NCBI GenBank assembly: GCA_002733645.1 | Contig: NVWL01000005.1 | Location: 62,001 to 126,000 of the forward strand | DNA from: Oceanobacter sp. | GTDB lineage: Bacteria > Pseudomonadota > Gammaproteobacteria > Pseudomonadales > Oceanobacteraceae | Length of the DNA stretch: 64,000 bases | Direction: 5' to 3' | Part shown: positions 14,075 through 63,159 of the stretch, piece by piece | How the letters are laid out: every line of letters begins with the position of its first letter | Numbering within the stretch: the first letter of the stretch is position 1 | The notes under the pieces: generated by a model | What the model was told of the DNA's origin: nothing | The model's database searches: none | Seen by the model: only the letters and a program-made list of their open reading frames with translations | Position numbers and translations under genes: made by a program

Positions 14075-15133
14075 ATGACCTCAACGATTTTAGTAACTGG
14101 CGGCGCCGGCTACATTGGCTCACATACGTGCGTGGAATTACTCAATGCAGGTTATGACGTGGTGGTTATCGACAACCTCTCGAACAGCTCACCAGAAGCA
14201 CTAAAACGCGTTGAAGCCATTACCAATAAAAATGTGTCCTTCATTGAAGGGGATGTTCGTAATCGAAAACTACTTAAAAAAGTATTCGCAGAGCACAGCA
14301 TCGCTGCTGCGATTCACTTTGCTGGCTTAAAGGCCGTGGGTGAATCTTGCCAAATGCCGCTCGCCTATTACGACAACAACCTAAATAGCACCCTAGCACT
14401 GTGCCAAGAAATGGAAGCAGCCGGTGTTAAAAATCTCGTATTCAGTTCTTCAGCAACTGTATATGGCGACCCAGAAACGCTCCCCCTGACAGAAGACTTA
14501 CCACTTTCAGCGACTAATCCTTACGGACGTTCTAAGTTAATTATTGAAGAGATGCTGCGAGATCTACCGGAAGCAGACACACTTAATAAAGCTGAAAAGC
14601 CATGGGCGGTCATACTACTGCGCTACTTTAATCCAGTCGGGGCGCACGAATCAGGCACTATCGGTGAAGACCCCAAAGACACGCCCAACAACCTAATGCC
14701 TTATATCACACAAGTGGCGGTAGGCCGTCGTGAAAAACTGTCTGTATTTGGCAGCGACTACGACACCGTTGATGGTACTGGCGTACGTGACTACATCCAT
14801 GTAGTTGACCTTGCCAAAGGCCACGTCTGCGCCGTAAACAACCTATTAGGCAACTTGTCAGGTAAAAGCCCAATCACAGGTGTAGAAGCCATTAACCTGG
14901 GAACAGGTAACGGCATCAGCGTACTAGAATTAGTTAACGCCTTTAGCACCATCAATGATGTGCCGGTGCCACATGAACTCGTTGCACGACGCCCTGGCGA
15001 CGTTGCGGCTTGTTACGCCAATGCAGATAAGGCCTCTGAACTCCTCGACTGGTCAACTGAACTGGATGTTGATGCTATGGTCAAAGACTCGTGGCACTGG
15101 CAGAAAACCAACCCAAAAGGTTATGGCCAATAA
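14075..15133 (+). CDS. galE: UDP-glucose 4-epimerase GalE
   Basis: Short-chain dehydrogenase-type epimerase interconverting UDP-Glc and UDP-Gal (some homologues also UDP-GlcNAc and UDP-GalNAc). 352 aa. It has an NAD-binding TGGAGYIGSH near the N-terminus, the catalytic Ser in FSSSATVYG, the Tyr-x3-Lys as YGRSK, and RDYIHVVDLAKGH. Start at 14075, three bases after dcd. It ends 100 bp before the tRNA-Asn that borders the polysaccharide locus, and would supply UDP-Gal, a donor or acceptor sugar needed for the glycan proposed there. Confidence 0.96.
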   Translation: MTSTILVTGGAGYIGSHTCVELLNAGYDVVVIDNLSNSSPEALKRVEAITNKNVSFIEGDVRNRKLLKKVFAEHSIAAAIHFAGLKAVGESCQMPLAYYDNNLNSTLALCQEMEAAGVKNLVFSSSATVYGDPETLPLTEDLPLSATNPYGRSKLIIEEMLRDLPEADTLNKAEKPWAVILLRYFNPVGAHESGTIGEDPKDTPNNLMPYITQVAVGRREKLSVFGSDYDTVDGTGVRDYIHVVDLAKGHVCAVNNLLGNLSGKSPITGVEAINLGTGNGISVLELVNAFSTINDVPVPHELVARRPGDVAACYANADKASELLDWSTELDVDAMVKDSWHWQKTNPKGYGQ

Positions 15134-15235: not shown

Positions 15236-15311
15236 TCCCCGATAGCTCAGTTGGTAGAGCAGTAGACTGTTAATCTATTGGTCGCTGGTTCAAGTCCAGC
15301 TCGGGGAGCCA
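15236..15311 (+). tRNA. tRNA-Asn (GTT), CCA encoded
   Basis: 76 nt. Acceptor arm TCCCCGA/TCGGGGA, D-arm TAGCTCAGTTGGTAGAGCA, anticodon loop TGTTAAT with anticodon GTT, T-arm loop TTCAAGT, discriminator G and genomically encoded CCA. It marks the edge of the polysaccharide locus. tRNA genes often serve as integration sites, but no integrase or repeated tRNA 3' end was seen. Confidence 0.98.
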
Positions 15312-15337
15312 ATTCTTTTTACCAAGGTATGGACGGC

Positions 15338-16624
15338 ATGGTTAAAGGACCTTCGATAGACAGTTCTCTACAACCAGCGTCTATTTCAAAAAAATCTCTT
15401 CTAGTACACAGCTTAACCATGATATTTGGCCTGTCTATAGCTGGCTTAATTATTTATGGATTATCAGTACCTTTCACGAACCTATCGCTCTCAGCACCTC
15501 AATTAAAAAATGTTTTGTATGGTTCACTTATCAGTTATTTACTCTCAAGTATTACGCTGCATAATTTAGGAAGATTTCCGGGTAATCGCCCTTTATCTTA
15601 TTTACTACCCGTAGTAGCTGTATACATGCTCATAATGAGCGCTGTCATCATTTTCACACGATTAGATTATTCTCGGACGGCATTACTTATTTCTTGGATT
15701 GTACTGCCAGTAATCACCTATCTAGAATTTCGTTTAAGGCAAAAATTTCAAAAGGGGCGATATGCAGTAATTCCCCACGGTTTCTACAAACGCTTAATTG
15801 AATGTAACCCAAAGAAATTTATAGCACTGGATTCTCCGTCATTAGAGTATTCAGACATTATTGGTATTATCGTTGATAGCAATGAGCAGCTTCCTGCAGA
15901 ATGGCAACAATTTATTGCAGAGCAGTTATCAAAAGATACTCCAGTAATAGACTCCGTTAGTGCATATGAGTCGATTACAGGAAAAAGCCCTTTAGATCAC
16001 TATGGAGAGCTTGCAGGACACGACCTACTTCCCTCTCAAGCGTACCTTGGTGCTAAGCGTATTTTTGAATCGGCACTAATTATCTCTACAGCGCCACTTA
16101 CCCTTCCCTTCGTCGCATTGGTTGCGGTTAGTGTAAAACTGGAATCAAAAGGGCCTGCTTTTTTTGTACAGCGCCGTGTAGGTAAGGGTGGACAAGAATT
16201 TAGCATGTACAAAATACGAAGCATGCGCACAGACTCGGAAGTTAATGGCGCTCAATTCGCTGGTGAAGATGACCCTCGAATTACTCGAATAGGTAAATTC
16301 ATCCGAAAAATGCGAATCGATGAATTACCACAATTTTTAAATATTCTTAAAGGCGATATGGCGCTGATTGGCCCAAGACCGGAACAAGCGGCTTTTGTAA
16401 AAGAGTTTGAAAAAGCTATACCACTCTATAGTTTCCGTCATATAGTTCGACCTGGAATTACCGGCTGGGCACAGGTAACCCATGGTTATGCTGCAGACGA
16501 AGATGAAACTCGTGAGAAATTAGCTCATGATTTTTATTATGTGAAAAACCTGAGTATTTGGTTAGACTTAGACATCGTCTTTAAAACGATAAAGACGATG
16601 CTGACTGGCTTTGGGGCACGATAA
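15338..16624 (+). CDS. Polyprenyl-phosphate sugar-1-phosphate transferase (WcaJ/WbaP-type initiator)
   Basis: Initiating enzyme that moves a sugar-1-phosphate from a nucleotide sugar to undecaprenyl phosphate. The N-terminal half has several membrane helices (about residues 20-130) and a soluble linker. The C-terminal third is the catalytic bacterial sugar transferase domain: a membrane entry helix (about 250-275), then FFVQRRVGKGGQEFSMYKIR, RITRIGKFIRKMRIDELPQF and GDMALIGPRPEQ. Start uncertain: ATG at 15338 has AAGG ten bases upstream, while ATG 15329 is closer to it. The gene begins only 26 bp after tRNA-Asn and ends four bases before the last gene of the opposing operon. Sugar specificity (Gal, Glc or other hexose) cannot be told. 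Confidence 0.88.
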   Translation: MVKGPSIDSSLQPASISKKSLLVHSLTMIFGLSIAGLIIYGLSVPFTNLSLSAPQLKNVLYGSLISYLLSSITLHNLGRFPGNRPLSYLLPVVAVYMLIMSAVIIFTRLDYSRTALLISWIVLPVITYLEFRLRQKFQKGRYAVIPHGFYKRLIECNPKKFIALDSPSLEYSDIIGIIVDSNEQLPAEWQQFIAEQLSKDTPVIDSVSAYESITGKSPLDHYGELAGHDLLPSQAYLGAKRIFESALIISTAPLTLPFVALVAVSVKLESKGPAFFVQRRVGKGGQEFSMYKIRSMRTDSEVNGAQFAGEDDPRITRIGKFIRKMRIDELPQFLNILKGDMALIGPRPEQAAFVKEFEKAIPLYSFRHIVRPGITGWAQVTHGYAADEDETREKLAHDFYYVKNLSIWLDLDIVFKTIKTMLTGFGAR

Positions 16625-16627
16625 TAA

Positions 16628-17674
16628 TTATTCACCGTAATATAAGTCAATGTATTGATCCCGGTGAACATTAAGATCGAATCTTTGACTAAATAACACC
16701 CGGGATGCTAACGACATATTTTCTATGTTCATTAGTACAAAATCAATAGATCGTGACAACTCCTCTTCGGTATTACCAAACAAAGCACCATTGTCCTGTA
16801 TCAGTTCAGAGCAACCACCAACATTACTTAGAATTAGTGGTAAGCCGGCGCTCATTGCTTCCAAAGCAGACATCGGAAGACCTTCACTGTCAGATGCGAG
16901 AAGAAATACGTCATAGTCTGAATACCTGCAAAATCCTTGTTGCATCCCTTCAAAAATAACGTTATCGAGACCAGATGCCATCCTTTGAAGTTCTCTCATC
17001 TGAGGGCCATCACCAACTATATGCAGTTCGCAATTTTTTCCAGCTACGGCTCTAATGCATAAATCAAACCTCTTTGGAAAATCCAACCGACTAACACATA
17101 ACAATTTGGGAGGCTCACTGAAGCCTGTACTTCTATTTCCTTGTTGTGATATTGGAAAAAGCTTATTTTCAATTAATGTAAGCTTTTTCTCAGGAATTTT
17201 AATAATATTCTGAGCCGCTTTATAATCGCTATTAGAGATGCAGAGAATAACATCTGTAAATAGTGAGAGCACTCTCTCTATAAAAGTGTAAATCAGGCCT
17301 AAGGTTTTACCCCTATATATAGATGACCAACCATGACTGACGTATATTACTTTTATATGAATAAATATTTTTAAAAGCCTAGCATAAACTCCTGCGAATG
17401 CTGAGGACGCCACAATAACTTTAACCTGGTGTTTCTTAGAAAATCTAAGTAACCGATAAAATGTATTGATTGAAAATCCTTTAGAAAAAGCTGGATCACA
17501 AAAAACATCCTGGCAAAAATCTTTAACCTCATCTACCAGCCAGCCAGCACAATCATCAGTTACCAAATATATTGGATCGGTAGTTGATATCGCTAGCATC
17601 TCAATTTGCTCCTTTGCCCATTTCTGAGCTCCACCGACCTCCGATTTAGATATAATAAAAACAACTCCGCTCAC
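16628..17674 (-). CDS. GT4-family glycosyltransferase
   Basis: 348-aa GT-B fold transferase, last gene of the polysaccharide operon. The N-terminal domain opens with a KSEVGGAQKWAKEQIE glycine loop. The C-terminal glycosyltransferase domain carries KLLCVSRLDFPKRFDL, LHIVGDGP and the E-x7-E nucleotide-sugar motif in SEGLPMSALEAMSAGLPLIL. It starts with GTG in a GTGA overlap with the preceding GT2 gene. The DNA is clearly more AT-rich than the housekeeping genes, suggesting acquisition. Donor and linkage unknown. Confidence 0.88.
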   Translation of the reverse strand: MSGVVFIISKSEVGGAQKWAKEQIEMLAISTTDPIYLVTDDCAGWLVDEVKDFCQDVFCDPAFSKGFSINTFYRLLRFSKKHQVKVIVASSAFAGVYARLLKIFIHIKVIYVSHGWSSIYRGKTLGLIYTFIERVLSLFTDVILCISNSDYKAAQNIIKIPEKKLTLIENKLFPISQQGNRSTGFSEPPKLLCVSRLDFPKRFDLCIRAVAGKNCELHIVGDGPQMRELQRMASGLDNVIFEGMQQGFCRYSDYDVFLLASDSEGLPMSALEAMSAGLPLILSNVGGCSELIQDNGALFGNTEEELSRSIDFVLMNIENMSLASRVLFSQRFDLNVHRDQYIDLYYGE

Positions 17675-18402
17675 TTAAACAAACCTTTGATATAGTAGAT
17701 TAGAGCTCCGATAAAGTAGTCCGCCCTCTTCGATAAAAGACTTTCTCGGAGTAAATATCCTGAGACATCAGCATAGGAACTGGAACTTCCTTTAGACTGT
17801 TCATGATGAACCCGATAAAATACTAAATTTTCCTGAATATTGTAGAACTTAAGTTGGGAATTCCTCATTAAACGGAGCCATAGGTCGTAATCTTGTGCAT
17901 ATCGCCCTCCCATGTATCCTGACACGGACATCAAGACCTCTTTACGAATCATAATACTTGGGTGGGCAAGTACAGATCTATAATATATCTTTCTCCGTAT
18001 CGCGGCATCATGCTCAGGGAACACCAAATTTCCACCATAAACTTCACCATATTCATCAATCAATTCAAGATTACTACCAACTACATCATAATCATTCATA
18101 TAAAATAGTTGACGTTCCAACCTAAAGGGCGAACAAATATCATCAGCATCCATACGGGCTATAATGTCTCCCCGACAACGATCTAAAGCAAAATTCAGAT
18201 TATAATTGAGCTGACCTATTTTTGTTTCAAATACTATTAATCTCTCATCGTCATAAGTCTTTAGAATATCCAGCGTACGATCACTTGAGTCATTTACAAC
18301 AACCAAGACCTCTATATCCTGGTATGTTTGCCCTAATACGCTATCAATACACTCAGATATATAACGCTCGGAATTTTTCGAACAAATTATAACTGAAATC
18401 AT
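17671..18402 (-). CDS. GT2-family glycosyltransferase
   Basis: 243-aa GT-A fold inverting transferase. It begins MISVIICSKNSERYISECID, with SVLGQTYQDIEVLVVVNDSS forming the nucleotide-binding half. The metal-binding DxD region is ARMDADDICSPFRLERQ, followed by VVGSNLELID and a C-terminal QDYDLWLRL (catalytic Asp region). Its start overlaps the stop of the DUF1919 gene (TAATG), and its stop overlaps the GT4 start. It probably adds one sugar to the lipid-linked repeat unit. Confidence 0.88.
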   Translation of the reverse strand: MISVIICSKNSERYISECIDSVLGQTYQDIEVLVVVNDSSDRTLDILKTYDDERLIVFETKIGQLNYNLNFALDRCRGDIIARMDADDICSPFRLERQLFYMNDYDVVGSNLELIDEYGEVYGGNLVFPEHDAAIRRKIYYRSVLAHPSIMIRKEVLMSVSGYMGGRYAQDYDLWLRLMRNSQLKFYNIQENLVFYRVHHEQSKGSSSSYADVSGYLLRESLLSKRADYFIGALIYYIKGLFK

Positions 18403-19019
18403 TAACTATCTAACCATTCAACAACATCAAAGTAGTCCGAGTATTCCATAAACAAAGGCAAAACACCTACTTGTGAATCACCCTCATATCTACGGCAAAA
18501 AATCGTGCCTGGTATTTCTTGATAATTGTTTGAAACAAAAGATAACTTTTTGTGGGCTTTTATCTTCGAAAAATTCACAATATTTTCATATGTAGTGAAA
18601 TCCCGATCAGTCATTATTAGATATACACGATCAAAATTCACTTTTAAAGCCCGACGCTCCCACTTACATCGTGCCTCCTCAAATGTATCATAGTGCAAAA
18701 AATGAAGCTCAACATCGTCTATGATGCCTAAGGGATAGGAAGTCTTACCAAGCCATTTACTACACTCCCCCTCCGATACCGGTAGGGAAAGATAATATCT
18801 AAGATTTGAAGCAAATTTGACAAAATCATTACCACATATAAATAGACCGATCGTAGGGGAATTAAAGGGTAAGCCGAAGTCCTTATATATAGAGCCAGCA
18901 ATACAATTGCTGGAAATTATTGTGTAAGTATCCGTCTCTAACTTGCGTCCGTTGTACTTTCTTCTACGAAGGTATAGATTTACTTCGTTTCGAACCTTCC
19001 TAAATATCTTCAATAACAT
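18402..19019 (-). CDS. DUF1919 family protein in polysaccharide locus
   Basis: 205-aa protein of the uncharacterised DUF1919 family, recognised from YTIISSNCIAGSIYKDFGLP, FNSPTIGLFICGNDFVKFAS and NLRYYLS. It has no signal peptide or membrane helix. Members are usually encoded in capsule, O-antigen or exopolysaccharide clusters, and a role in modifying the glycan has been guessed but not shown. Cys at the conserved SSNC site and an HFLHYDTFEEARCKWERR helix are visible. It lies between the fucosyltransferase (2-bp gap) and the GT2 gene (1-base overlap). Confidence 0.75.
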   Translation of the reverse strand: MLLKIFRKVRNEVNLYLRRRKYNGRKLETDTYTIISSNCIAGSIYKDFGLPFNSPTIGLFICGNDFVKFASNLRYYLSLPVSEGECSKWLGKTSYPLGIIDDVELHFLHYDTFEEARCKWERRALKVNFDRVYLIMTDRDFTTYENIVNFSKIKAHKKLSFVSNNYQEIPGTIFCRRYEGDSQVGVLPLFMEYSDYFDVVEWLDS

Positions 19020-19021
19020 AA

Positions 19022-19837
19022 TCAGCCTTCAATAAGAGTCCACTCAGGGAGCACGATCGAATTCTCGATGCCTTTGTAATAATACTTAGGAGCAATGACA
19101 TGCTTACTATTAGACAACAGAGCAGCCCAAATACTAAATGTACTATTAGCAATTATCAACTTTTCACACTTACTCATGAGAATCATATCCATGTGAGAAT
19201 TATCTCCACTATTATGATCAACAAAAATAGAATCCTCAGGAAAAATTCCTATACTCTTTGACCAAGGTATATCATCCGAAAAAATATAAAATCTCCCTTC
19301 ACCCACTAAAGAAATTGCTTTCAGATAATAATCTTCAGTACACTCATAAAAATAACTATTTTCAGGTAAGAGGTAGTCGCCACGTCTTATATGAATCGCT
19401 ACAGATGGAGCTGATGCAATAAGGTCTAGTATCTCACTATTTTTTATATTTTGATTATCTCTTGCCGAAGTTAGCACTCCACTAAGCAAGGAAGCCAGCT
19501 CCGGGTTCTGCCAATAGCCAAGCATATAGCGGCCTGAACACGCCCTGTCATCAGCAATCAACTTCAAGTGGTTATACGTCAATCTTTTTAATAGTTTCGA
19601 TAATAAAATATAAAACAGTGTAAAAAAGCTATTCGTAATCTTAATATCTGAATCAATATAGAAAAAGTTAAGACACGACTCAACAACCCTTTGCTTGAGA
19701 ATATACTTTTGGAACCATTGAGTACTAACAATAGAATCATCTATTACTACAGATTCACCGGTTCTCATAATATCTAATGCTTCTGCTATCTGGAATAGCT
19801 GATTACCAGTACCACCATTTAGAATAATTCGTTTCAT
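19022..19837 (-). CDS. GT11 alpha-1,2-fucosyltransferase
   Basis: 271-aa GT11 enzyme that would move L-fucose from GDP-Fuc to the 2-position of galactose. Landmarks are the N-terminal NGGTGNQLFQIAEAL (about 7-21), LGYWQN (106-111), the GDP-binding HIRRGDY (149-155), FYIFSDD (183-189) and NSTFSIWAALLS (231-242). These are the hallmarks of bacterial and animal alpha-1,2-fucosyltransferases. The donor pathway genes gmd and fcl lie upstream in the same locus. It overlaps the GT6 gene by ATGA, so the two are probably made together. Confidence 0.9.
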   Translation of the reverse strand: MKRIILNGGTGNQLFQIAEALDIMRTGESVVIDDSIVSTQWFQKYILKQRVVESCLNFFYIDSDIKITNSFFTLFYILLSKLLKRLTYNHLKLIADDRACSGRYMLGYWQNPELASLLSGVLTSARDNQNIKNSEILDLIASAPSVAIHIRRGDYLLPENSYFYECTEDYYLKAISLVGEGRFYIFSDDIPWSKSIGIFPEDSIFVDHNSGDNSHMDMILMSKCEKLIIANSTFSIWAALLSNSKHVIAPKYYYKGIENSIVLPEWTLIEG

Positions 19838-20607
19838 CTAGATTCGACTACTATTTTTTTAACGAAAGATTTAACCAAGCCTAAAGCCTTCCCCGAACCT
19901 GCGCTAGCATTCTTTACTCCCGAGTACCACGGGTATTTAGCTTTATCCCTCATACTAATAATGGGGTCCCCTATCCAGCCCTCAGGTAAAGAATAGCACG
20001 AAGGTAACATATTAACTTTTTTTTCTATTAAGTAACGATTTAAGTGTGATTCATCATGAGCACGAGCAATAATATTTGCCCTGAGATCTTGATTAATATT
20101 TCGATTACAACATTCTACCAGGTCCATATACTCATTAGAAAAACCACCATTCAAGCACCCCTGAAAATAGCAATCACCTTCAAACCTACCGACATAAGCG
20201 GTAGAGTTCCTATGTTTCCTCTCATATGGTAAGAAAATCTTACGATACTTCTGATAGCCAGGATGCACGACCCCTGTCAGCGTGTATCCAGGAGGCAAAA
20301 CGTCCTTCATTGAAATGGTTTCACAGAAAAGTGCATTTGCATTAAAGAAGAAAACAGCATCATGACTTCGAAGAGTATCTCTATGACGAAGAAAATACTT
20401 AAATCGAAACATTGTATTCAATGGCCATCCTAGGTCATCAACGCTACTAACGTGTACATTAGTGCCACTTATTGTTGACGGCCGGTCTGTAAATACAAAA
20501 TAGTTTTTTTCACAATCAGGTAAAAAGTTTTTCTCGCAGCTAGAATAGAAGTCAGTCCAGAAGTCCGTATAATCCCCAATTGCCAAGTACAGTATTGCAA
20601 CTCTCAC
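19834..20607 (-). CDS. GT6-family (ABO blood-group type) alpha-1,3-glycosyltransferase
   Basis: 257-aa homologue of the histo-blood-group A/B transferases, alpha-1,3-galactosyltransferase and Forssman synthase. Collinear segments are FVFTDRP (37-43), RFKYFLR (68-74), FFFNANALF (86-94) where vertebrate enzymes have the DVD metal site, VHPGYQKY (114-121), YERKHRNSTAYV (128-139), EGDCYFQGCLNGG (143-155) and the near-invariant HDESHLNRYL (184-193). NAN instead of DxD is the form reported for bacterial GT6 enzymes, some of which work without metal. There is no membrane anchor. It would add Gal or GalNAc in alpha-1,3 to a fucosylated galactose; the residues at the donor-selecting positions (QGC) fit neither human allele. 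It starts with GTG in a GTGA overlap with the flippase gene. Confidence 0.86.
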   Translation of the reverse strand: MRVAILYLAIGDYTDFWTDFYSSCEKNFLPDCEKNYFVFTDRPSTISGTNVHVSSVDDLGWPLNTMFRFKYFLRHRDTLRSHDAVFFFNANALFCETISMKDVLPPGYTLTGVVHPGYQKYRKIFLPYERKHRNSTAYVGRFEGDCYFQGCLNGGFSNEYMDLVECCNRNINQDLRANIIARAHDESHLNRYLIEKKVNMLPSCYSLPEGWIGDPIISMRDKAKYPWYSGVKNASAGSGKALGLVKSFVKKIVVESR

Positions 20608-21788
20608 ACCTTTCTCCAGTAGAAACTCATAATTAAAACAGTAGTCAATTTAGCAAGTGAAAAATAAAGCAAAGCATTATCAAATGGCACATCCCAATAG
20701 AAAAACAACAGTAGAAATGCAAATACCACAGCGGATAAAGTCGCTTGTATTCCGAAGTTGCCTTCTGCATTTAAGAACACACTTATAAAATCTGACAACT
20801 GAAAACATAGATAAAGTAAAGCCAAGAGTAAAATACTAATCTCAAGGCTGACTTCTATACCCATATATACTTTAACAAGCCAGTCGACAAAAAATATCAT
20901 CAAAAATACCCAAAGAAAAATAGCCGATAGCAATAGTGTGAATAAATAGGAAACACCTGCTAGGTCTTGAGTACCTGCCTTGTATTGTGCGTACCTCATC
21001 CAAATCACTGGCGCCACAAAAGCAAAAATCTGAATTGGAAAAAAAAAGAATTTATAATATGTCGAGTATACACCGTATTCTTCGATGCCGAAAAATGATT
21101 CAGCGTATACTGTAAGAAGAATAATTGAAGCAACTGAGAATATTTGAAGTAATATATAGTTTCCGTTACCAGAACCCAGGTTGAAATATTTGTAAAGCCC
21201 CCTAATCCCGAAATTAATCTCTGTTACAGGCAACAGTTTTTTCGAAAAACACTTATAAAGTGCATACACTGTCCTATAGGAAATCATAACGGAAGCAACC
21301 AGCGCGACATGAACTTCAACAATACACATTGTGATCACTAAAGCTGTGATTACTACTTGACAAGCAAACTCCCCCAGTTTATATCTGATACTCTCCATAC
21401 GATAATCAAAGTATGTCGCAATGACCGGTGAAAACAGAGTGAATATCGTTGCCAATACAAAAGCATAATACTCAATATCAAATTGAATATATAACAAACA
21501 CAAAAATGAGAGTAAGACCAGCAGCATAACCCATGCTAAGGTCTGCTGAATAGAAAAGGATATCGTATTAGTTGCATCATCAAATTTACTTAATTTTGAC
21601 AATGAATTTCTCAAAGTCGGAGTAATTCCACACTGAAATATCGATACGTAAACCATCATTGCTGTTAGGTAATTGAATGTACCATAATCAACCAGATCGT
21701 ACTGCCTGGCAACTACCATCGGTAAGAAAAAAGCGACGACTACCGAAAGCAATTTAACCATAGATATACTAAAAATTTCTTTAGTCAT
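20604..21788 (-). CDS. wzx: Lipid-linked oligosaccharide flippase (Wzx-like)
   Basis: 394-aa polytopic membrane protein of the polysaccharide_synt/MATE-like exporter fold, about 12 hydrophobic helices. It begins EIFSISMVKLLSVVVAFFLP and has ARQYDLVDYGTFNYLTAMMV, the typical first-loop pattern of Wzx proteins. It is expected to move the undecaprenyl-linked repeat unit across the inner membrane. The 8-base overlap with the polymerase-like gene upstream and the GTGA overlap with GT6 downstream show tight coupling. Confidence 0.83.
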   Translation of the reverse strand: MTKEIFSISMVKLLSVVVAFFLPMVVARQYDLVDYGTFNYLTAMMVYVSIFQCGITPTLRNSLSKLSKFDDATNTISFSIQQTLAWVMLLVLLSFLCLLYIQFDIEYYAFVLATIFTLFSPVIATYFDYRMESIRYKLGEFACQVVITALVITMCIVEVHVALVASVMISYRTVYALYKCFSKKLLPVTEINFGIRGLYKYFNLGSGNGNYILLQIFSVASIILLTVYAESFFGIEEYGVYSTYYKFFFFPIQIFAFVAPVIWMRYAQYKAGTQDLAGVSYLFTLLLSAIFLWVFLMIFFVDWLVKVYMGIEVSLEISILLLALLYLCFQLSDFISVFLNAEGNFGIQATLSAVVFAFLLLFFYWDVPFDNALLYFSLAKLTTVLIMSFYWRKV

Positions 21789-22941
21789 CTCGTACTTCCC
21801 TGAACATACAAAAAGAAAGAAAGAGCCACATAGGCATATATATAATCAGACCAAGGAAAGATGATGCCAAAAGAAACCCTATGAGTAATGCTCGCTGAAA
21901 CGCCCCTCCATAAAAAAACAAAAGCATTAAAAGTAGTATAAAGCATGCCATAAAAAATAGACCATAACTAGCCGCAACTTCAATGAAAAGATTATGGGCT
22001 CCAAACTGTTGACCATCAACTTCCACCTTCGAGCTTGAGTACCCACTTCCTAATAATGGCGCTTCAGATATCAACTCGACTTGAGATTTCAGAATTTCAA
22101 CACGCTGACTGGTAGATGAACTGAGATTATCGGATCTTGAATCAAGGACTTTTATGACACCTAAAAGACATATAATACAAGCGATTACTAAGAAGAATAG
22201 TTCAAGGGGCTTAACCAGTCTCTTGGCTATTCTATATGTATACAGGTATAGGATCACGCCAAAATAAGCTAAAATAACACCCCGAGACATCGCTAACAGA
22301 AGCACTATTACTCCTGCACCCACTAGTATCAAATCAGTTTTTCTTTTACCAAAAAAAAGATAAGAAAATGTTACTGCGATCAAAAAGGGTAGAAGCGTAT
22401 AACTAAAATAGTTGGGATCACCATTAAGAGGGCTAAATCTAAATTTAGATATATCCCCCCTGAAGGAAATAGAGGAACTATAATTAATACTGAAGAATTC
22501 CTCCTCAAAGACCAATATAGATATAGCCTGCAGAAGTACCAAAATAAAAAAAGTCGTTACCATAATTCGCGAAATAGCGATAAGCCTTGCTTTACTTCCA
22601 AATTCCCTGAAAATTACTGCCATACCAAATACAACAACCATTAAACGAAGGAATTCGCTATCAATAATGCCTGCTGTTGCTTGGGATATGGCAGAAATGA
22701 CAATAAAAATAACCAAGAATGATAGTGATACAAGTACTAATGTATAGCTATACCTCAGCAAGGGAAGGATGAGTAGTAAAGATAAGTTTGCTACTGCTGC
22801 TATTGATAAATATGGAAGAGCATCACTAAACACTGACATTGGAAGCGAATAAACTGCTAATGATACTATATTGAAATAAAATACAAACAGGATAATCCGA
22901 CTTCTAATGCTCTTCACTTCGTTTAATGCATTCACTAACAC
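21781..22941 (-). CDS. wzy: O-antigen polymerase/ligase-like membrane protein (Wzy-type)
   Basis: 386-aa protein with about 10-11 hydrophobic segments. It has a large periplasmic loop around residues 250-320 ending APLLGSGYSS...HNLFIEVAASYG, the signature of the O-antigen ligase/polymerase superfamily (Wzy_C). In this setting it most likely polymerises repeat units; a ligase (WaaL) role cannot be excluded. It is the first gene of the AT-rich run; the 80-bp gap to fcl is the largest inside the minus-strand cluster. Confidence 0.78.
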   Translation of the reverse strand: MLVNALNEVKSIRSRIILFVFYFNIVSLAVYSLPMSVFSDALPYLSIAAVANLSLLLILPLLRYSYTLVLVSLSFLVIFIVISAISQATAGIIDSEFLRLMVVVFGMAVIFREFGSKARLIAISRIMVTTFFILVLLQAISILVFEEEFFSINYSSSISFRGDISKFRFSPLNGDPNYFSYTLLPFLIAVTFSYLFFGKRKTDLILVGAGVIVLLLAMSRGVILAYFGVILYLYTYRIAKRLVKPLELFFLVIACIICLLGVIKVLDSRSDNLSSSTSQRVEILKSQVELISEAPLLGSGYSSSKVEVDGQQFGAHNLFIEVAASYGLFFMACFILLLMLLFFYGGAFQRALLIGFLLASSFLGLIIYMPMWLFLSFCMFREVRDD

Positions 22942-23021: not shown

Positions 23022-23981
23022 TCAACTACGGATACATTTTAAGGAAGCCATATACCAGTCATACGTACTTTCCAACCCGTCTTTCAATTCGATGCTGTAG
23101 GCCCAACCCAATTTTTTCAGGGTATCAACATTCATCAATTTACGCGGTGCGCCGTCAGGCTTGGTGGTATCAAACGACACTTGCCCCTTGTACCCTACAA
23201 CCTCTGCCATGGTTAATGCCATTTCTGCAATGGTGCAATCAACCCCAGTGCCCACATTAATATGCGATAACATAGGCTCAGTGCATGACTCGTAGGTTTC
23301 TTGGCTAACATTGGCCACAAAAATAGACGCCGCGGCCATATCATCCACATGCAAAAACTCACGCATAGGCTTGCCAGTTCCCCACACAACGACTTCAGGT
23401 GTGTCATTCAGCTTGGCTTCATGGAAGCGGCGCATTAATGCCGGAATTACATGCGAGTTATCTGGGTGGAAATTATCGTTCTCACCGTACAAGTTGGTCG
23501 GCATCACGCTACGGTAGTTACGGCCATATTGGCGGTTGTAACTTTCGCATAATTTAATGCCCGCTATCTTTGCAACGGCGTATGGCTCATTGGTGCGTTC
23601 TAACGTACCAGTCAACAATGCATTTTCAGCCATTGGCTGTTCAGCTAATTTTGGGTAAATACACGAGGAACCTAAAAAGACTAAATCATTTACATCGGCC
23701 ATATGAGCCGAGTGAATGATGTTGCATTCAATCATTAGGTTTTCGTATATGAAGTCAGCCGGGTAAGTATTGTTTGCCACAATGCCGCCAACTTTAGCTG
23801 CCGCGAGATACACCTGATCGATCTTTTCATTTTCAAAAAACGTCTGAACTTCCGCCTGATTCAACAGGTTGAGTTGTTTTCGATCACGCACAATCAACTC
23901 AACGTCTTTTTGTGCAGCCAGTTGACGAACAATGGCCGAGCCGACCATGCCTTTATGGCCAGCAACGAATACTCTTTTCAT
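23022..23981 (-). CDS. fcl: GDP-L-fucose synthase (GMER)
   Basis: NADPH-dependent epimerase/reductase converting GDP-4-keto-6-deoxy-mannose to GDP-L-fucose. 319 aa. N-terminal [17 protein letters not shown] nucleotide site, [14 protein letters not shown], catalytic Tyr-x3-Lys as [20 protein letters not shown], and [10 protein letters not shown]. It lies 13 bp after gmd, the standard gmd-fcl pair. Its base composition is closer to the housekeeping genes than that of the downstream glycosyltransferases. Confidence 0.96.
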
Positions 23982-23994
23982 TGTTATTCAGGCC

Positions 23995-25119
23995 TCAGCT
24001 TTCAATGGCGACGTTGACGTTAAAACCGTGCTTTTTCAGCAGAGCGTGTTGCTTCGCATTTTGCAAATCGTTTTGTACCATCTCGGCACACATCTCTTCG
24101 ACGGTGATTTCTGGCACCCAACCTAACTTATTCTTCGCATTGGTAGGATCACCCAGTAGAGTTTCTACTTCTGCCGGGCGGAAGTACTTAGGATCAACAC
24201 GAACAATCACATCACCCACCTTCAGTGCATGAGCGTTATCACCTTCAATCGCTTCGACGATGGCAGTTTCTTCAACGCCTTCACCTTCAAAACGCAAAGT
24301 AATACCCAGTTCTTTTGCAGATAAACGTACAAATTCACGTACTGAGATTTGCTTGCCGGTTGCGATCACAAAATCTTCAGCTTGGTCTTGTTGTAACATC
24401 ATCCACTGCATACGTACGTAATCTTTGGCATGACCCCAATCACGTAATGCATCCATATTACCTAGGTACAAACACTTCTCTAGACCTTGTGAGATATTGG
24501 CTAAAGCACGGGTAATTTTACGAGTAACGAAGGTTTCACCACGGCGTGGAGATTCATGGTTAAACAAAATACCGTTACACGCATACATGCCATAGGATTC
24601 ACGGTAGTTTACTGTAATCCAGTAGGCGTACATCTTCGCTACGGCATAAGGCGAACGTGGATAAAACGGCGTGGTTTCTTTTTGCGGAATTTCTTGTACC
24701 AAACCATACAACTCAGAGGTAGACGCTTGGTAGAAACGAGTCTTCTTTTCTAGCCCTAAAAAACGAATCGCCTCAAGCAAACGCAGAGTGCCCATAGCAT
24801 CGACATCGGCTGTGTATTCAGGAGAATCAAATGAAACGGCAACGTGCGACTGAGCACCAAGGTTGTACACCTCATCCGGCTGCACTTCTTTAAGAATACG
24901 AGTCAGGTTAGATGAATCGGTCAAATCACCGTAGTGAAGAAAGAAGCTTACGTTCTCTTCATGTAAATCTTGATAAATATGATCAACACGCTGGGTATTT
25001 AAAGATGATGCACGGCGCTTAATACCGTGAACTTCATACCCTTTTTCAAGCAATAGCTCAGCAAGGTAAGATCCGTCTTGGCCGGTTACGCCGGTAATCA
25101 AGGCTACTTTCTTAGACAT
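23995..25119 (-). CDS. gmd: GDP-mannose 4,6-dehydratase
   Basis: First committed step from GDP-mannose to GDP-L-fucose (also to GDP-rhamnose or perosamine in other organisms). 374 aa. [20 protein letters not shown] is the NADP loop, followed by [20 protein letters not shown], the catalytic SELYG and [25 protein letters not shown] and [10 protein letters not shown]. It begins 27 bp after pyrF with no terminator between, so the polysaccharide genes may be read through from the pyrF operon. No manA/manB/manC genes for GDP-mannose are in the window. Confidence 0.97.
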
Positions 25120-25146: not shown

Positions 25147-25854
25147 TTAAGCAATTGAAGAAACTATTTGGTTGCATGCGGCATTGGGAAGGCTACTCTG
25201 CGTCACAGGTCGACCGATAACCATATAATCCACCCCAGCCTCTACCGCCTGTTTCGGTGTCATCACACGCTTTTGATCACCAACATCACTGCCTTCAGGT
25301 CTAATACCTGGCGTTACTGTTAAAAAGTCTTTCCCACAAATTTCACGTATCAACGCGACTTCACGAGCGGAGCAGACAACACCATCCAACCCTGATAATT
25401 GCGTTAATTTTGCCAAGCGCTCGACTTGTTCCATTGGCTCGATATCTAGGCCAATACCGGCAAGATCGCTGCGTTCCATAGAGGTCAGAACGGTTACGCC
25501 AATCAGCAATGGCTTATGTGTTTTCTTTTCTAATTCGTTTCTGGCGGCTTCCATCATTTTTTGGCCGCCAGACGCATGAACATTCACCATCCACACACCT
25601 AAATCTGCAGCAACCCCCACGGCTTTTGCACAGGTGTTTGGTATGTCATGAAATTTCAAATCAAGGAAGACGTCGTAGCCACGCTTATGAAGCTGCTCAA
25701 GTATGACCGGGCCTGTTGCTGTGTAGAGTTCTTTACCGACTTTAACTCGACATAGCTTAGGATCTAGCTGGTCGGCCATCGCTAACGCTTGTTCTTGCGT
25801 TGGAAAATCGAGTGCGACAACTATGGGCGACTGGATAGGTGACTGTGTGGTCAT
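25147..25854 (-). CDS. pyrF: Orotidine 5'-phosphate decarboxylase
   Basis: Final step of UMP synthesis. 235 aa TIM barrel. Visible motifs are IVVALDFPT, the catalytic [18 protein letters not shown], and the C-terminal [20 protein letters not shown] with VIGRPVTQS. It lies downstream of lapB (41-bp gap), as in E. coli and Pseudomonas, and upstream of gmd. Confidence 0.97.
25242..25249 (-). promoter_or_regulatory. Possible ops-like core (GGCGGTAG) inside pyrF, ahead of gmd
   Basis: The minus strand carries GGCGGTAGAGG within the pyrF coding region, about 120 nt before the gmd start. GGCGGTAG is the core of the ops element at which RfaH joins RNA polymerase in polysaccharide operons. An 8-base match inside a gene can occur by chance, so only the location makes it worth listing. 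Confidence 0.22.
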
Positions 25855-35886: not shown

Positions 35887-37035
35887 CTACCAGTGACCAG
35901 TTTCTTTGCGATCACGACGCAAATGGCGACTTGATGCGGCGGCTAGCAGAGCGGCCAACAAACCAAACATAAAGCCACCAACGCCACCCAGTGCCACAAT
36001 CAACACCTTTCTTGGCTTAATGGGTTTAAGTGGCAATAAAGCAGGCTGATCAATTAATGCAAAGTTAACCGAGTCCCAATCTACTTTCATATTTTCTAAC
36101 GTCGATATACTGCCTCGAATTGCAGACATCCCCTCAATAAATACATCTTCTGACGCTTTATTCGTGCGCTGCTTTAACTGTTCAGCTTCGCGTTTTAACG
36201 CAAGCTCACCCATCATATAAAGTGGCGGCTCACTGCTTACCACAACGTCATTGGTATTATAAAAAGGCTTCGCCTGGCCAATACTCACAGCCACCGCCGC
36301 TGCTTCATCTAAGAGAGCGATGCGTCTCGCTTTTTCCGATTCATAAGCATCTCGAAAGCTAGACGCCCACGACTGATTTAGTTGCAGCTGCGACTGAACT
36401 TTACGACCTAACTCTTGACGAATTTGGTTTTCATAACGTAACAGAGCGAAATCGACATAATCATTCAATAAATCCCGAGCCAACTCTGCATCTTCTAACT
36501 CAATATTCACTTTTAGATAAATATCTTGATCGGTTTTGCTATTTGAATCAGAAAACGTAAACAGACCTAAAAATCCAGCAAGGTTTTGTTCTTCCGTTAA
36601 TTCATCGTTGTACAAAAGCGCTTTAATTTTGGAATTTTCTGAGTTCAATATTTCTTGATAAAAGGATTTACGCGCCGTCGCAGACCGAACAACCGCTCGC
36701 ACCCCCATAAACGCTGTATTACTATCCAACGCAAAGACAGGCTCTCCACTCAATTCAACCGGACTACCCTTGTCAGTTTGCCCCCTAGCTGACGTTAATT
36801 TTAATGTCGTTCTTAGCGACGGCTGATTAAATGTTAATAAATCTGACTCAGGGGCATCACGCAATATCAATTCAGTACGATATAACGGCGATACTGTGAA
36901 CGCATAAACCGTGGCAAGAATACTACCCACCACCAACCAGCCAACCAGCCAATACCATTTATCACGAATATCATCGACAAGATCGAACAAATCGATCTCA
37001 TCGTCTTGACGGCTTTCAATGACTTTTTCCGTCAT
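35887..37035 (-). CDS. wzz: Wzz-type chain-length determinant (polysaccharide co-polymerase)
   Basis: 382-aa inner-membrane protein with two helices (about 30-50 and 342-365) enclosing a large periplasmic, partly coiled-coil domain. The N-terminal EIDLFDLVDDIRDKWYWLVG and the Pro-rich PLKPIKPRKVLIVALGG before the second helix are characteristic of Wzz. It would set the modal chain length of a Wzy-polymerised glycan. It begins two bases after the gyrA stop, within a housekeeping operon and about 10 kb from the glycan cluster it presumably serves. Confidence 0.87.
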   Translation of the reverse strand: MTEKVIESRQDDEIDLFDLVDDIRDKWYWLVGWLVVGSILATVYAFTVSPLYRTELILRDAPESDLLTFNQPSLRTTLKLTSARGQTDKGSPVELSGEPVFALDSNTAFMGVRAVVRSATARKSFYQEILNSENSKIKALLYNDELTEEQNLAGFLGLFTFSDSNSKTDQDIYLKVNIELEDAELARDLLNDYVDFALLRYENQIRQELGRKVQSQLQLNQSWASSFRDAYESEKARRIALLDEAAAVAVSIGQAKPFYNTNDVVVSSEPPLYMMGELALKREAEQLKQRTNKASEDVFIEGMSAIRGSISTLENMKVDWDSVNFALIDQPALLPLKPIKPRKVLIVALGGVGGFMFGLLAALLAAASSRHLRRDRKETGHW

Positions 37036-60246: not shown

Positions 60247-63159
60247 CTATCCTTTTGTTTTACGTCGATATGATAATAGCATCATCATTCCTAGCACCCA
60301 CACCCAAGTCAATGCACCAATGCCCGTCGATGCCGTCATATGGTCCGACTTGCTATCCCCTGTGAGGTTATCACCAGTGGCTGTGCCCGGTGCTTGATTT
60401 TTATCACTATCGTTATCAATGTAATCTGGAATGCCATCGCCATCTGAATCGGGGCAATCATTCACTGAAGGGCATTCCACGCTGTCGTCGATACCATCAC
60501 CATCACTGTCTGTACTCATGTAATTAGGTGTGCCGTTAAAATCTGAATCTTTACAGAATGGATATCCCGCAGCGCACTCAAATAGATCCGATAGGCCATC
60601 CCCATCACTGTCGCCACCATCCATTCCACCATCGACGCCACTTGCAACATCGGCCTGTGCAGGAATGCCGTCGTTATCTTCGTCTATATTGAAGTCACTG
60701 GCGGATAACGTTTCGTCAAAGTCACTTATGCCATCATTGTCTGAATCCGTGTCACGGTAATCCGCAAAGCCATCACCATCCGTATCAAGCACGACCCAGG
60801 TATCTCGAATACCATCTCCATTGTCATCTGGGCCATTATCAATGATGCCATCGAAGTTGATGTCTGCATCGTAAAAATCATCGTAGCCATCAACGTCGTC
60901 GTCGTTTCCAATAAGACCGGCTTCTTGGCGATCCGATAATCCATCTCGATCAGAATCTAGCTGCGTGTAATCTGGTTGGCCATCTAGGTCGGTGTCGCTG
61001 CAGCACTCAACCACATCCGGGATACCATCCGCATCACTGTCTCCACCACCGAGCGCAATAAAAGGATCGAGCACATCAATAATTCCATCCTTATCTGTAT
61101 CGGCGAGTGCTTCATTCACATCGTCAATGCCGTCGGCATCACTGTCGAAATCTAGTAGGTCTGGCGTTCCATCGCCATCGGTATCACGTAATGCGAAATC
61201 AACAATGCCATCACCATTCATATCGGGAGCGCTAATCATGCTTGCATCAATGGCGTCATCAATTCCGTTACCATTAGTATCTTCACCTAAAAGCGGAACC
61301 GCGAGCTCTTCGTTATCACGCAAGTCATCGCCGTCGCTATCACGCAAGTTAGGGTTGGAGCCAATAATTTGAGACTCGATAAAATTAGTTAGTCCATCTA
61401 AGTCTGAATCGTTAAATTCGTCCTTAACATCTGGAATGCCATCACCGTTGGTGTCGGTTGGCATGCTCGCATCCGTACCGACTTCCCGACCATCGTTAAC
61501 ACCATCCCCATCGCTATCGGCATTGAATGGATCGATACCAATGGCTACTTCATCAATATCACTCACACCGTCGTTATCATCGTCGGTATCGGTGACGTCG
61601 GAAATAGAATCGCCATCGTTATCCAGCGGCGTGTCGCCGCTATCGAGCGGGTCAGACCCTGACGCTACTTCGTCATCATCAGTATAAGTGTCATTATCAT
61701 CATCAGTATCTGCATTATTCCCCGTACCGTCGGAATCGGTGTCTACAGATTCAGTAGGATCATTTGGAAAGGCATCTTCGGTATCAAGGACGCCATCACC
61801 ATCAGTATCGCGCGTTATTGCTAGCGTAAAATAATCGCCATCGTTCAATTGAATATTTTCAATAATACCCGTGCTCGAATCCACTTCCCCTAACGATTCT
61901 GAGCCATCAAAAAAATCAGAATTCGAGTTTTTACGCACTAAATACACCCGAGTATTCGCTGGCAGCGTTGGCAGTTCAAATTTTAACGAGACGGGCTGAT
62001 TAAACGATGTGCTTTGCACCAGCCACTCACGAGATAAGCGTAGCGAGTATGGTGTCTCTAATTCAGTGTCTTGAGTTGCAACAGCCGCAGCATTATCACC
62101 AACGATGAAATATTGTTGATCACCAGAAATTTCGGTAACACGGCTGATACTGCCATTATCGCTGCTAAAATCTGCATCAATAGATAAGATGAGCTCACTT
62201 GAGTCTACCGAGCGCGAGACCTTTTGATGCAAGCCGCTAATGTCATCTCGCGCAAGACCAAATACTGAATGGTTAAATGAGGCGCTTTCAGCAGCCGACC
62301 ACACAACTTGGTCATTGCTGCCGACGTAATCCCCCTCTAACGCGATGCCGTACTTAATGGCTAAGTAGGTATTAGCTTTTCTTAACTGTTCTGGTGTGAG
62401 TGCCTCGGCATACCAAATAACCTCCATGATATCGCCGTTAAATGCTTCGCTCATCAAAACAGCGCCATAACCTACACTCAACACATTTCCTCGTGTAATA
62501 ACGGGATCATCCATTACGTTTAAGGTGTCGACGCCATTAAAACCGAAAGTCACTTGATCGTTATTCACACCACCGATCACAGAGTGGCTTAACAAGTTTT
62601 GAGATAACGGAATTGAATTAGAGTATCGGTATTCCGAGATACCAAAAAAGTCATCTGATTCTAAACTGATTTGTAACTGCCCCGGGTTCTCAGTGTCCAT
62701 TCCCATTAGCGAGATACCTGGCTCTCGTGCGGGGCTGGAACTGCCATAATTGAGGTTATCTAACCCTGTGATTCGAGCCGTCACATCATCAGCCAACACA
62801 GATTCATTACGAGTGACCGTTAATATAGTTAGCGGGGTTGGACTTTTTTCGTCAACAACAAAAGAAGCATCCGGCTCTAAAAAAAGTCGGTTAGAACTAT
62901 ACCCTGTGGTGTAAGGGTGAAAGTTATGATCTGAGTCTGCAGCAGTTAATTCCCAGGGCGCCTCACCAGAATCTGCCACAGCTTCGACGGGGTTGTTGTT
63001 ATCTGAGTGATCTTTCCAAGCGGTACTGATATCTCCCGCGTCATCTGATTTCAGCCACAGGCCCGGGCTAGAAACACCACCAGGAGCGGCAAGCGACGAA
63101 AAAGCAACGAATGATATCGACACTAATACAGCGTGATTAAACTTTGAAGAGATCTTCAT
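60247..63159 (-). CDS. Large exported thrombospondin type 3 repeat protein
   Basis: 970 aa. Signal peptide (about 1-24), an N-terminal beta-rich region (about 25-440) starting GLWLKSDDAGDISTAWKDHS and including LTPEQLRKANTYLAIKYGIA, features of the DUF8202/LamG-like head of many surface proteins. Then about 480 residues of Asp/Gly-rich calcium-binding TSP3 repeats (for example DTDGDGVLDTEDAFPNDP, DSDGDGIPDYIDNDSD). The C-terminus (about 940-970) has a hydrophobic helix WVWVLGMMMLLS followed by YRRKTKG, like a sorting or anchoring tail. A Ca2+-stabilised surface or secreted protein is likely. It shares an operon with the OmpA-like gene downstream. Confidence 0.85.
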   Translation of the reverse strand: MKISSKFNHAVLVSISFVAFSSLAAPGGVSSPGLWLKSDDAGDISTAWKDHSDNNNPVEAVADSGEAPWELTAADSDHNFHPYTTGYSSNRLFLEPDASFVVDEKSPTPLTILTVTRNESVLADDVTARITGLDNLNYGSSSPAREPGISLMGMDTENPGQLQISLESDDFFGISEYRYSNSIPLSQNLLSHSVIGGVNNDQVTFGFNGVDTLNVMDDPVITRGNVLSVGYGAVLMSEAFNGDIMEVIWYAEALTPEQLRKANTYLAIKYGIALEGDYVGSNDQVVWSAAESASFNHSVFGLARDDISGLHQKVSRSVDSSELILSIDADFSSDNGSISRVTEISGDQQYFIVGDNAAAVATQDTELETPYSLRLSREWLVQSTSFNQPVSLKFELPTLPANTRVYLVRKNSNSDFFDGSESLGEVDSSTGIIENIQLNDGDYFTLAITRDTDGDGVLDTEDAFPNDPTESVDTDSDGTGNNADTDDDNDTYTDDDEVASGSDPLDSGDTPLDNDGDSISDVTDTDDDNDGVSDIDEVAIGIDPFNADSDGDGVNDGREVGTDASMPTDTNGDGIPDVKDEFNDSDLDGLTNFIESQIIGSNPNLRDSDGDDLRDNEELAVPLLGEDTNGNGIDDAIDASMISAPDMNGDGIVDFALRDTDGDGTPDLLDFDSDADGIDDVNEALADTDKDGIIDVLDPFIALGGGDSDADGIPDVVECCSDTDLDGQPDYTQLDSDRDGLSDRQEAGLIGNDDDVDGYDDFYDADINFDGIIDNGPDDNGDGIRDTWVVLDTDGDGFADYRDTDSDNDGISDFDETLSASDFNIDEDNDGIPAQADVASGVDGGMDGGDSDGDGLSDLFECAAGYPFCKDSDFNGTPNYMSTDSDGDGIDDSVECPSVNDCPDSDGDGIPDYIDNDSDKNQAPGTATGDNLTGDSKSDHMTASTGIGALTWVWVLGMMMLLSYRRKTKG

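Follow-up and report, generated by a model that had tools for sequence, protein, structure and literature searches.

An overlapping GT6–GT11 gene pair in an Oceanobacter polysaccharide cluster and its proposed ABO-like product

Which glycan is made by two overlapping glycosyltransferase genes in a gammaproteobacterium, and how closely would it resemble the A and B blood-group determinants? The genes lie on the minus strand of a 64,000 nucleotide stretch of an Oceanobacter sp. genome (contig NVWL01000005.1, positions 62,001 to 126,000), referred to here as the window. A first-pass annotation had assigned them to families GT11 and GT6, placed them in one operon with the GDP-fucose genes gmd and fcl and proposed an A- or B-like trisaccharide as their product. 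The GT11 gene (19022..19837, minus strand) has an ATG start and encodes a 271 amino acid protein with the motif HIRRGDY. The GT6 gene (19834..20607, minus strand) has a GTG start and encodes a 257 amino acid protein with the motifs HDESHLNRYL, YERK and HPGY, and its stop codon overlaps the GT11 start in the sequence ATGA (19834..19837, minus strand). Reading frames, motifs and overlap are exactly as annotated, as judged by ORF coordinates, Pfam and NCBIfam, and the family matches in these databases, together with the presence of gmd and fcl in the cluster, uphold the family assignments, the pairing and the supply of GDP-fucose.

The GT6 protein is assigned to the retaining GT6 glycosyltransferases of the bacterial NXN type by Pfam, NCBIfam, PDB comparison and a structural model. 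It matches Glyco_transf_6 (PF03414) with an E-value of 3.6e-24 and a score of 85.6, against a gathering score of 25, and NCBIfam NF041524 (Gltr_6) at 276.4 bits, against a cut-off of 250. The solved proteins in the PDB nearest to it by sequence are BoGT6a from Bacteroides ovatus (2.1e-43) and then the ABO transferases (~1e-18). Structure prediction had been suggested as a check, and the predicted GT6 structure (pLDDT 92.2, pTM 0.87) superposes on both, with TMq of 0.81–0.83 for the liganded forms of BoGT6a, 0.70 for the apo form 4ayl and 0.71–0.80 for those ABO transferases that appear in the list of 50 matches. As modelled, the protein has the GT-A fold of the ABO and BoGT6a enzymes. Where others have DXD it has Asn89-Ala-Asn91, an NXN motif that in BoGT6a goes with metal independence (PMC3961637). 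Tyr13, Arg68, Asn89, Asn91, Asp185, Glu186 and Lys222 are all present and align with functional residues of BoGT6a; the catalytic Glu186, Lys222 (BoGT6a Lys231) and Arg68 (BoGT6a Arg73) are invariant across the 34 rows of alignment A2.

The loop residue that precedes HDES in the window enzyme is Ala183 (RAHDESHLN). It aligns with Trp189 of BoGT6a, one of the loop residues described as key to binding the substrate and to catalysis (PMC3961637). In a 95-row GT6 alignment, thinned at 70% identity and with motif states taken from aligned columns, this column holds Trp in 78 rows, Tyr in 6, Phe in 5, Val in 3, Ala in 2 and a gap in 1, and the only Ala rows are the window enzyme and its homologue in Shewanella mangrovi YQH10 (NZ_JPEO01000011.1, locus L011). 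Trp before HDES is common in GT6 without defining the family. With Ala in place of this acceptor-loop Trp, the enzyme may use an acceptor other than plain H antigen.

The donor tripeptide, equivalent to ABO codons 266–268, is Gln149-Gly150-Cys151 (QGC). Enzymes of known sugar carry LGG or AGG (A), MGA (B), GGA (Forssman) or HAA (alpha-Gal) (PMC6351642), and since QGC is unlike any of the characterised tripeptides compared, the donor sugar is not readable from the sequence. QGC occurs in 27 of the 95 rows, 9 with NXN and 18 with Asp first in the motif; Asp-first rows number 28 in all, and the 18 with QGC are without exception phage or viral. Cys151 aligns with Gly157 of BoGT6a, a residue that contacts GalNAc (PMC3961637). 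The non-Gly third residue of the tripeptide tips the balance slightly towards Gal over GalNAc as donor, but only weakly so, because GGA takes GalNAc.

The overlapping partner matches Glyco_transf_11 (PF01531) over residues 103–269 with an E-value of 4.2e-21, above the gathering score, and carries HxRRxD together with an N-terminal GGxGNQxFQ. A PDB sequence search with E-values up to 1 returned six matches, all weak (best 0.13) and none of them a fucosyltransferase. The structural check suggested for this protein came out in part: the best PDB matches of the predicted structure (pLDDT 88.5) are the fucosyltransferases NodZ and FUT8, but TMq reaches only 0.54. We regard the protein as a GT11 family fucosyltransferase, putatively alpha-1,2, that would make the acceptor for GT6. 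The first-pass annotation overstated the case in treating alpha-1,2 linkage as general for GT11, as HhFT2 of Helicobacter hepaticus is an alpha-1,3-fucosyltransferase of this family (PMC4202792).

On the minus strand, the window carries in order rpsA, lapB, pyrF, gmd, fcl, a Wzy_C gene, a flippase-like gene, GT6, GT11, a DUF1919 gene, GT2 and GT4, and facing this cluster on the plus strand are galE and a gene for a polyprenyl-phosphate hexose-1-phosphate transferase. NCBIfam identifies gmd (GDP-mannose 4,6-dehydratase, 23995..25119, minus strand) and fcl (GDP-L-fucose synthase, 23022..23981, minus strand), and Pfam the Wzy_C protein, a putative O-unit polymerase (21781..22941, minus strand). 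Beyond the pair, Pfam likewise identifies the DUF1919 protein (18402..19019), a GT2 glycosyltransferase (17671..18402) and a GT4 glycosyltransferase (16628..17674), all on the minus strand. The DUF1919 gene sits between GT11 and GT2, as in S. mangrovi; the only convincing solved relative of its product is 2g6t, an uncharacterised protein, and a scan of viral contigs found no relatives. The hydrophobic 394 amino acid protein encoded at 20604..21788 (minus strand) is by its position a putative Wzx-like flippase. A Pfam search gave no match, and its positional counterpart in S. mangrovi shares 27% identity with it. The hexose-1-phosphate transferase (Bac_transf, 15278..16624, plus strand) is by family match the putative initiating enzyme, and a Wzz-family chain-length determinant (35887..37035, minus strand) lies ~11 kb from fcl–gmd. 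GDP-fucose genes, GT11 and GT6 are thus found together, as in O86-like O-antigen clusters.

The product of galE (14075..15133, plus strand) has a Cys that corresponds to residue 307 of the chain in PDB 1ek5/1ek6, within a shared VAACYAN. We take that chain to be human GALE and its Cys307 to permit UDP-GalNAc formation; because the aligned Cys is present, the window GalE may also make UDP-GalNAc.

Gaps of 13 bp separate gmd from fcl and 80 bp fcl from the Wzy gene, and the six junctions from Wzy to GT4 range from -8 to +2 bp. From this tight spacing we infer that gmd through GT4 form a single operon. The earlier statement that the pair shares an operon with gmd and fcl is therefore sound as regards strand, upstream position and spacing, the operon itself being probable from the spacing. 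GC content is 0.35–0.39 for the genes from Wzy to GT4 and 0.44–0.48 for gmd, fcl, pyrF, lapB and galE.

The 8-mer GGCGGTAG, presumably an ops-like element, has 5 copies in the window against 0.94 expected. One copy (25242–25249, minus strand) is within pyrF, ~120 bp before gmd, and another (14716–14723, plus strand) is within galE, before the initiating-enzyme gene. Promoter-like matches in the window number 36, near the shuffled mean of 31.9. Elsewhere in the window, a 970 amino acid protein (60247–63159), for which Pfam gives a single match, weak and below cut-off, to a bacterial TSP3 repeat, is possibly a large surface or secreted protein.

The same genome has a second gmd, 98% identical to the first, on contig 86 (L184, 47000–66000) within a second polysaccharide cluster, where its neighbours are fcl-like, Nudix-like and manC/manB-like genes (named from sequence starts). 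Since this cluster holds gmd and manC/manB-like genes, the supply of GDP-mannose is likely to be covered. Clusters with close gmd and fcl are also seen in the congeners G395 (L188) and G396 (L189).

How often do GT6 and GT11 occur together? A scan of genome contigs with an alignment-based query found 273 GT6 loci, of which the best 80 were retained; the equivalent scan with the single GT6 sequence as query found no relative. A scan of viral contigs found 301 GT6 loci, again with 80 retained (L091–L170). GT11 is present in the flanks of 66 of the 80 genome loci (best 80 of 273), within 100 bp of GT6 in 37, within 2 kb in 60 and further away in 6, with none in the flanks of 14. Among the 80 viral loci retained of 301, GT11 is present in 75; it is within 100 bp of GT6 in 52, no more than 2 kb away in 74 and more distant in 1, and the flanks of 5 have none. 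The retained genome loci are those most similar to the window GT6, itself GT11-linked, and the query alignment (A1) included two GT11-linked rows, so that 66 of 80 cannot be taken as representative of all 273 loci. Some contigs among the GT11-negative loci (14 of 80 genome, 5 of 80 viral) end nearby, and the count covers flanks only; GT6 may nonetheless function without GT11. Eight further regions (L003–L010) include GT11 in six cases, the two faecal phage records (L009, L010) having none. After thinning at 70% identity, GT11 accompanies GT6 in 50 of 64 bacterial, plasmid and other rows (a set that takes in the window and L009/L010), 29 of them within 100 bp, and in 27 of 30 viral and cyanophage rows, 15 within 100 bp.

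Set against this is a low whole-genome background of GT11, which is found in 18 of 369 genomes of the window's class and in 22 of 198 genomes of the phylum of L013, a Chitinophaga (own genome included in each case). In the window's own genome each of the two families has a single member, and the two genes are neighbours. The GT11 profile was refined iteratively on the ORF set it was then used to search, and gave 152 matches over all sets, the worst with an E-value of 7e-27. Pfam checks of 30 of these (alignment A4) all returned PF01531, and an HxR[RKT]xD-type motif is present in 139 of the 152 and absent in 13, some of them cut by contig ends. In two of the 80 genome loci, single ORFs contain both Pfam domains, in opposite orders: GT11–GT6 in a Gastranaerophilales MAG (L042:3870-5366) and GT6–GT11 in a Hoeflea sp. 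MAG (L060:9650-11593). Both were scored as adjacent in the pairing counts, and both may be assembly errors in which the stop between overlapping genes has been lost. GT6 and GT11 distances are correlated, with r of 0.41 over 67 pairs (a value reached by 0 of 2000 permutations, shared organism ancestry not removed) and 0.26 over 44 pairs of bacterial rows only (1 of 2000 permutations, organism kinship not removed).

In a plasmid collection the window's rpsA DNA matched 29 records; the ten best are from Klebsiella, Proteus and E. coli, at 72.5–72.9% identity, and 13 of the 29 belong to these three genera. Amongst relatives of the source organism the GT6 gene is rare: the window's own genome is the sole carrier among 44 genomes of the family, and again among the 369 sampled from the class. 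The locus was compared in five of the eight listed congeners (G395, G396, G398, G399, G402), and in all five the side from lapB–pyrF to galE holds other genes than in the window. At the lapB–pyrF locus, G395 (L198) and G398 (L190) carry gmd and fcl along with a different GT11 (30% identity) and lack GT6; in G399, G402 and G396 neither GT11 nor close gmd–fcl was found there. Such a picture fits an O-antigen locus at which alleles are swapped.

Drawing on families, motifs, predicted folds, gene order and the recurrence of the pair, we consider it likely that GT6 and GT11 belong to a Wzx/Wzy-dependent surface polysaccharide cluster and build an A/B-like trisaccharide branch in each repeat; the polysaccharide is probably an O-antigen. 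Gmd and Fcl would make GDP-L-fucose, the hexose-1-phosphate transferase would start the lipid-linked unit and GT2 and GT4 would extend it. GT11 would add L-fucose, probably alpha-1,2 onto beta-Gal, and GT6 would add Gal or GalNAc in alpha-1,3 linkage to the same fucosylated residue, completing one branch per repeat. Action of GT11 and then GT6 remains, as first proposed, the likeliest order, because the pairing recurs far above the GT11 background and because fusions exist. The scheme matches E. coli O86 (WbwK, WbnI) and, by gene numbering and LPS chemistry, Helicobacter mustelae. Arguing against an A/B trisaccharide are the GT6 loci with no GT11 nearby, the absence of the acceptor-loop Trp, the donor tripeptide QGC and the known alpha-1,3 GT11. 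The trisaccharide proposal is well supported, though unproven, but its more specific element, transfer of Gal or GalNAc to H antigen, cannot be read from a protein with QGC and the Trp-to-Ala change.

These same observations admit other readings. If GT6 and GT11 acted on different residues, the repeat would contain fucose and an alpha-linked Gal or GalNAc but no A/B trisaccharide. Such an arrangement would fit the 14 of 80 genome loci without GT11 in their flanks, the capacity of GT11 members to form other linkages (PMC4202792) and the acceptor-loop Trp-to-Ala change confined to the window and L011 among the 95 rows. We think it unlikely, however, as side-by-side pairing and two fusions of opposite order are best explained by successive action on one acceptor. 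Decidedly more doubtful is the idea that GT6 uses a donor sugar different from both Gal and GalNAc, in which case the product would be ABO-shaped but chemically different and the QGC enzymes would form a separate specificity class shared with cyanophages. Here the residues involved point both ways: 27 of the 95 rows, and among them 18 of the 28 Asp-first rows, carry QGC at the donor-selecting site, and Cys takes the place of the Gly that contacts GalNAc in BoGT6a, but Arg68, Asn89 and Glu186, which align with other GalNAc-contacting residues of BoGT6a, are conserved (PMC3961637). The NCBIfam name for the family is glucosyltransferase, although a name is no evidence of activity, and galE adjoins the cluster.

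It is very improbable, finally, that the cluster is silent or the pair decaying. The low GC content from Wzy to GT4 (0.35–0.39, against 0.45–0.48 for rpsA, lapB, pyrF and galE) is typical of transferred genes, but the reading frames are intact, both proteins keep the conserved residues that were checked, and S. mangrovi has a homologous cluster whose ORFs are likewise intact.

The claim that GT6 would be new to an apparently marine gammaproteobacterium is not supported, given the homologous cluster of S. mangrovi and published GT6 sequences from 36 bacterial species, two cyanophages and marine metagenomes, with A-type products also in print (PMC3961637). Other GT6 loci in our scans are in records named Tenacibaculum adriaticum, Candidatus Pelagibacter and Hoeflea, as well as in cyanophages. 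Some of these sources are presumably marine. A search of open-licence literature, in such text as was available, found no paper that treats GT6–GT11 pairing as a general rule or deals with the pairs in cyanophages; one cyanophage paper describes an alpha-1,2-fucosyltransferase directly preceding glycosyltransferase ORFs, the available part of its text drawing no link to pairing (PMC9602691). The window pair is a fresh example with an unusual acceptor loop and with relatives in many bacteria and in marine cyanobacterial viruses.

With the window, a second cluster, related to that of S. mangrovi, is now known. GT11 is usually close to GT6 in the sampled loci, and action of GT6 on a fucosylated acceptor therefore becomes a testable rule across bacteria; as viral and cyanophage loci also show GT11 near GT6, the view of bacterial ABO-like enzymes as mainly mimics of vertebrate hosts is weakened. 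The two enzymes that carry the Trp-to-Ala change naturally could be used at once to study that residue's role, and metal-independent GT6 enzymes are of use in glycan synthesis. A broader reading, which we offer only tentatively, is that GT11 and GT6 form an ancient, mobile H-to-A/B-type cassette that varies surface glycans in free-living bacteria and cyanophages independently of vertebrate mimicry. The QGC enzymes, and in particular the two Ala183 enzymes from the window and Shewanella, would then be a specificity class of their own, with another donor or acceptor, making an ABO-like but distinct trisaccharide, and the GT11-without-GT6 and GT11-plus-GT6 alleles at one locus in the window's genus would be a bacterial parallel to the H versus A/B types.

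Amongst known systems, E. coli O86 has a like pair of fucosyltransferase and GT6 in its O-antigen cluster, namely WbwK (alpha-1,2, GT11) and WbnI (GT6), which acts on Fuc-a2-Gal to give blood group B (PMC4202792). There the activity has been demonstrated, whereas for the window pair it is predicted. A search for O86 wbnI in E. coli genomes by DNA similarity gave no match, which is not evidence of absence. BoGT6a (4AYJ, 4CJ8) shares NXN, the catalytic Glu and Lys and the fold with the window GT6 but differs in having the tripeptide AGG, GalNAc as donor and Trp189. In the host-associated H. mustelae, whose LPS carries blood group A, the GT6-like HMU12050 is by gene number next to HMU12060, the only predicted fucosyltransferase (PMC2846917).

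Overlapping GT6 and GT11 genes followed by GT2 are also found, DUF1919 aside, on a Phocaeicola massiliensis plasmid (L007) and in Prevotella sp. oral taxon 299 (L008); unlike the window these are from Bacteroidota, with GT6 proteins 43% and 40% identical to that of the window. In T4-like cyanophages such as Synechococcus phage B23 (L003–L005) GT11 and GT6 are adjacent or overlapping, and in P-SSM2 (L006) they are 1.5 kb apart, but in all four GT11 precedes GT6 and DXD replaces NXN. As in the window, QGC is common among viral GT6 rows. The phage collection has GT6 in 71 records, 60 of them named Synechococcus phages and 4 Prochlorococcus phages. L003–L005 and many of the viral contigs (L091–L170) have GT11 and then GT6, mostly with an Asp-first motif, making up an ABO-like cassette in viruses of cyanobacteria.

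The nearest system is that of S. mangrovi, on whose polysaccharide the matches listed in a literature search (best 5 of many) held nothing. Its gene order is hexose-1-phosphate transferase, GT4, Wzy, flippase-like, GT6, GT11, DUF1919, GT2, gmd, fcl. The run from Wzy to GT2 and the presence of gmd–fcl in the cluster are shared with the window, but in S. mangrovi GT4 and the initiating enzyme are upstream, and gmd–fcl are downstream of GT2 and followed by manC/manB-like genes (named from sequence starts). Local identities are 47% for GT6, 39% for GT11, 46% for DUF1919, 41% for GT2, 38% for GT4, 39% for Wzy, 27% for the flippase-like protein, 85% for gmd and 69% for fcl. Both GT6 proteins combine the Trp-to-Ala change with QGC and form one clade with support of 100/99 (the bootstrap of the tree not having settled completely), and the two clusters probably build very similar repeat units.
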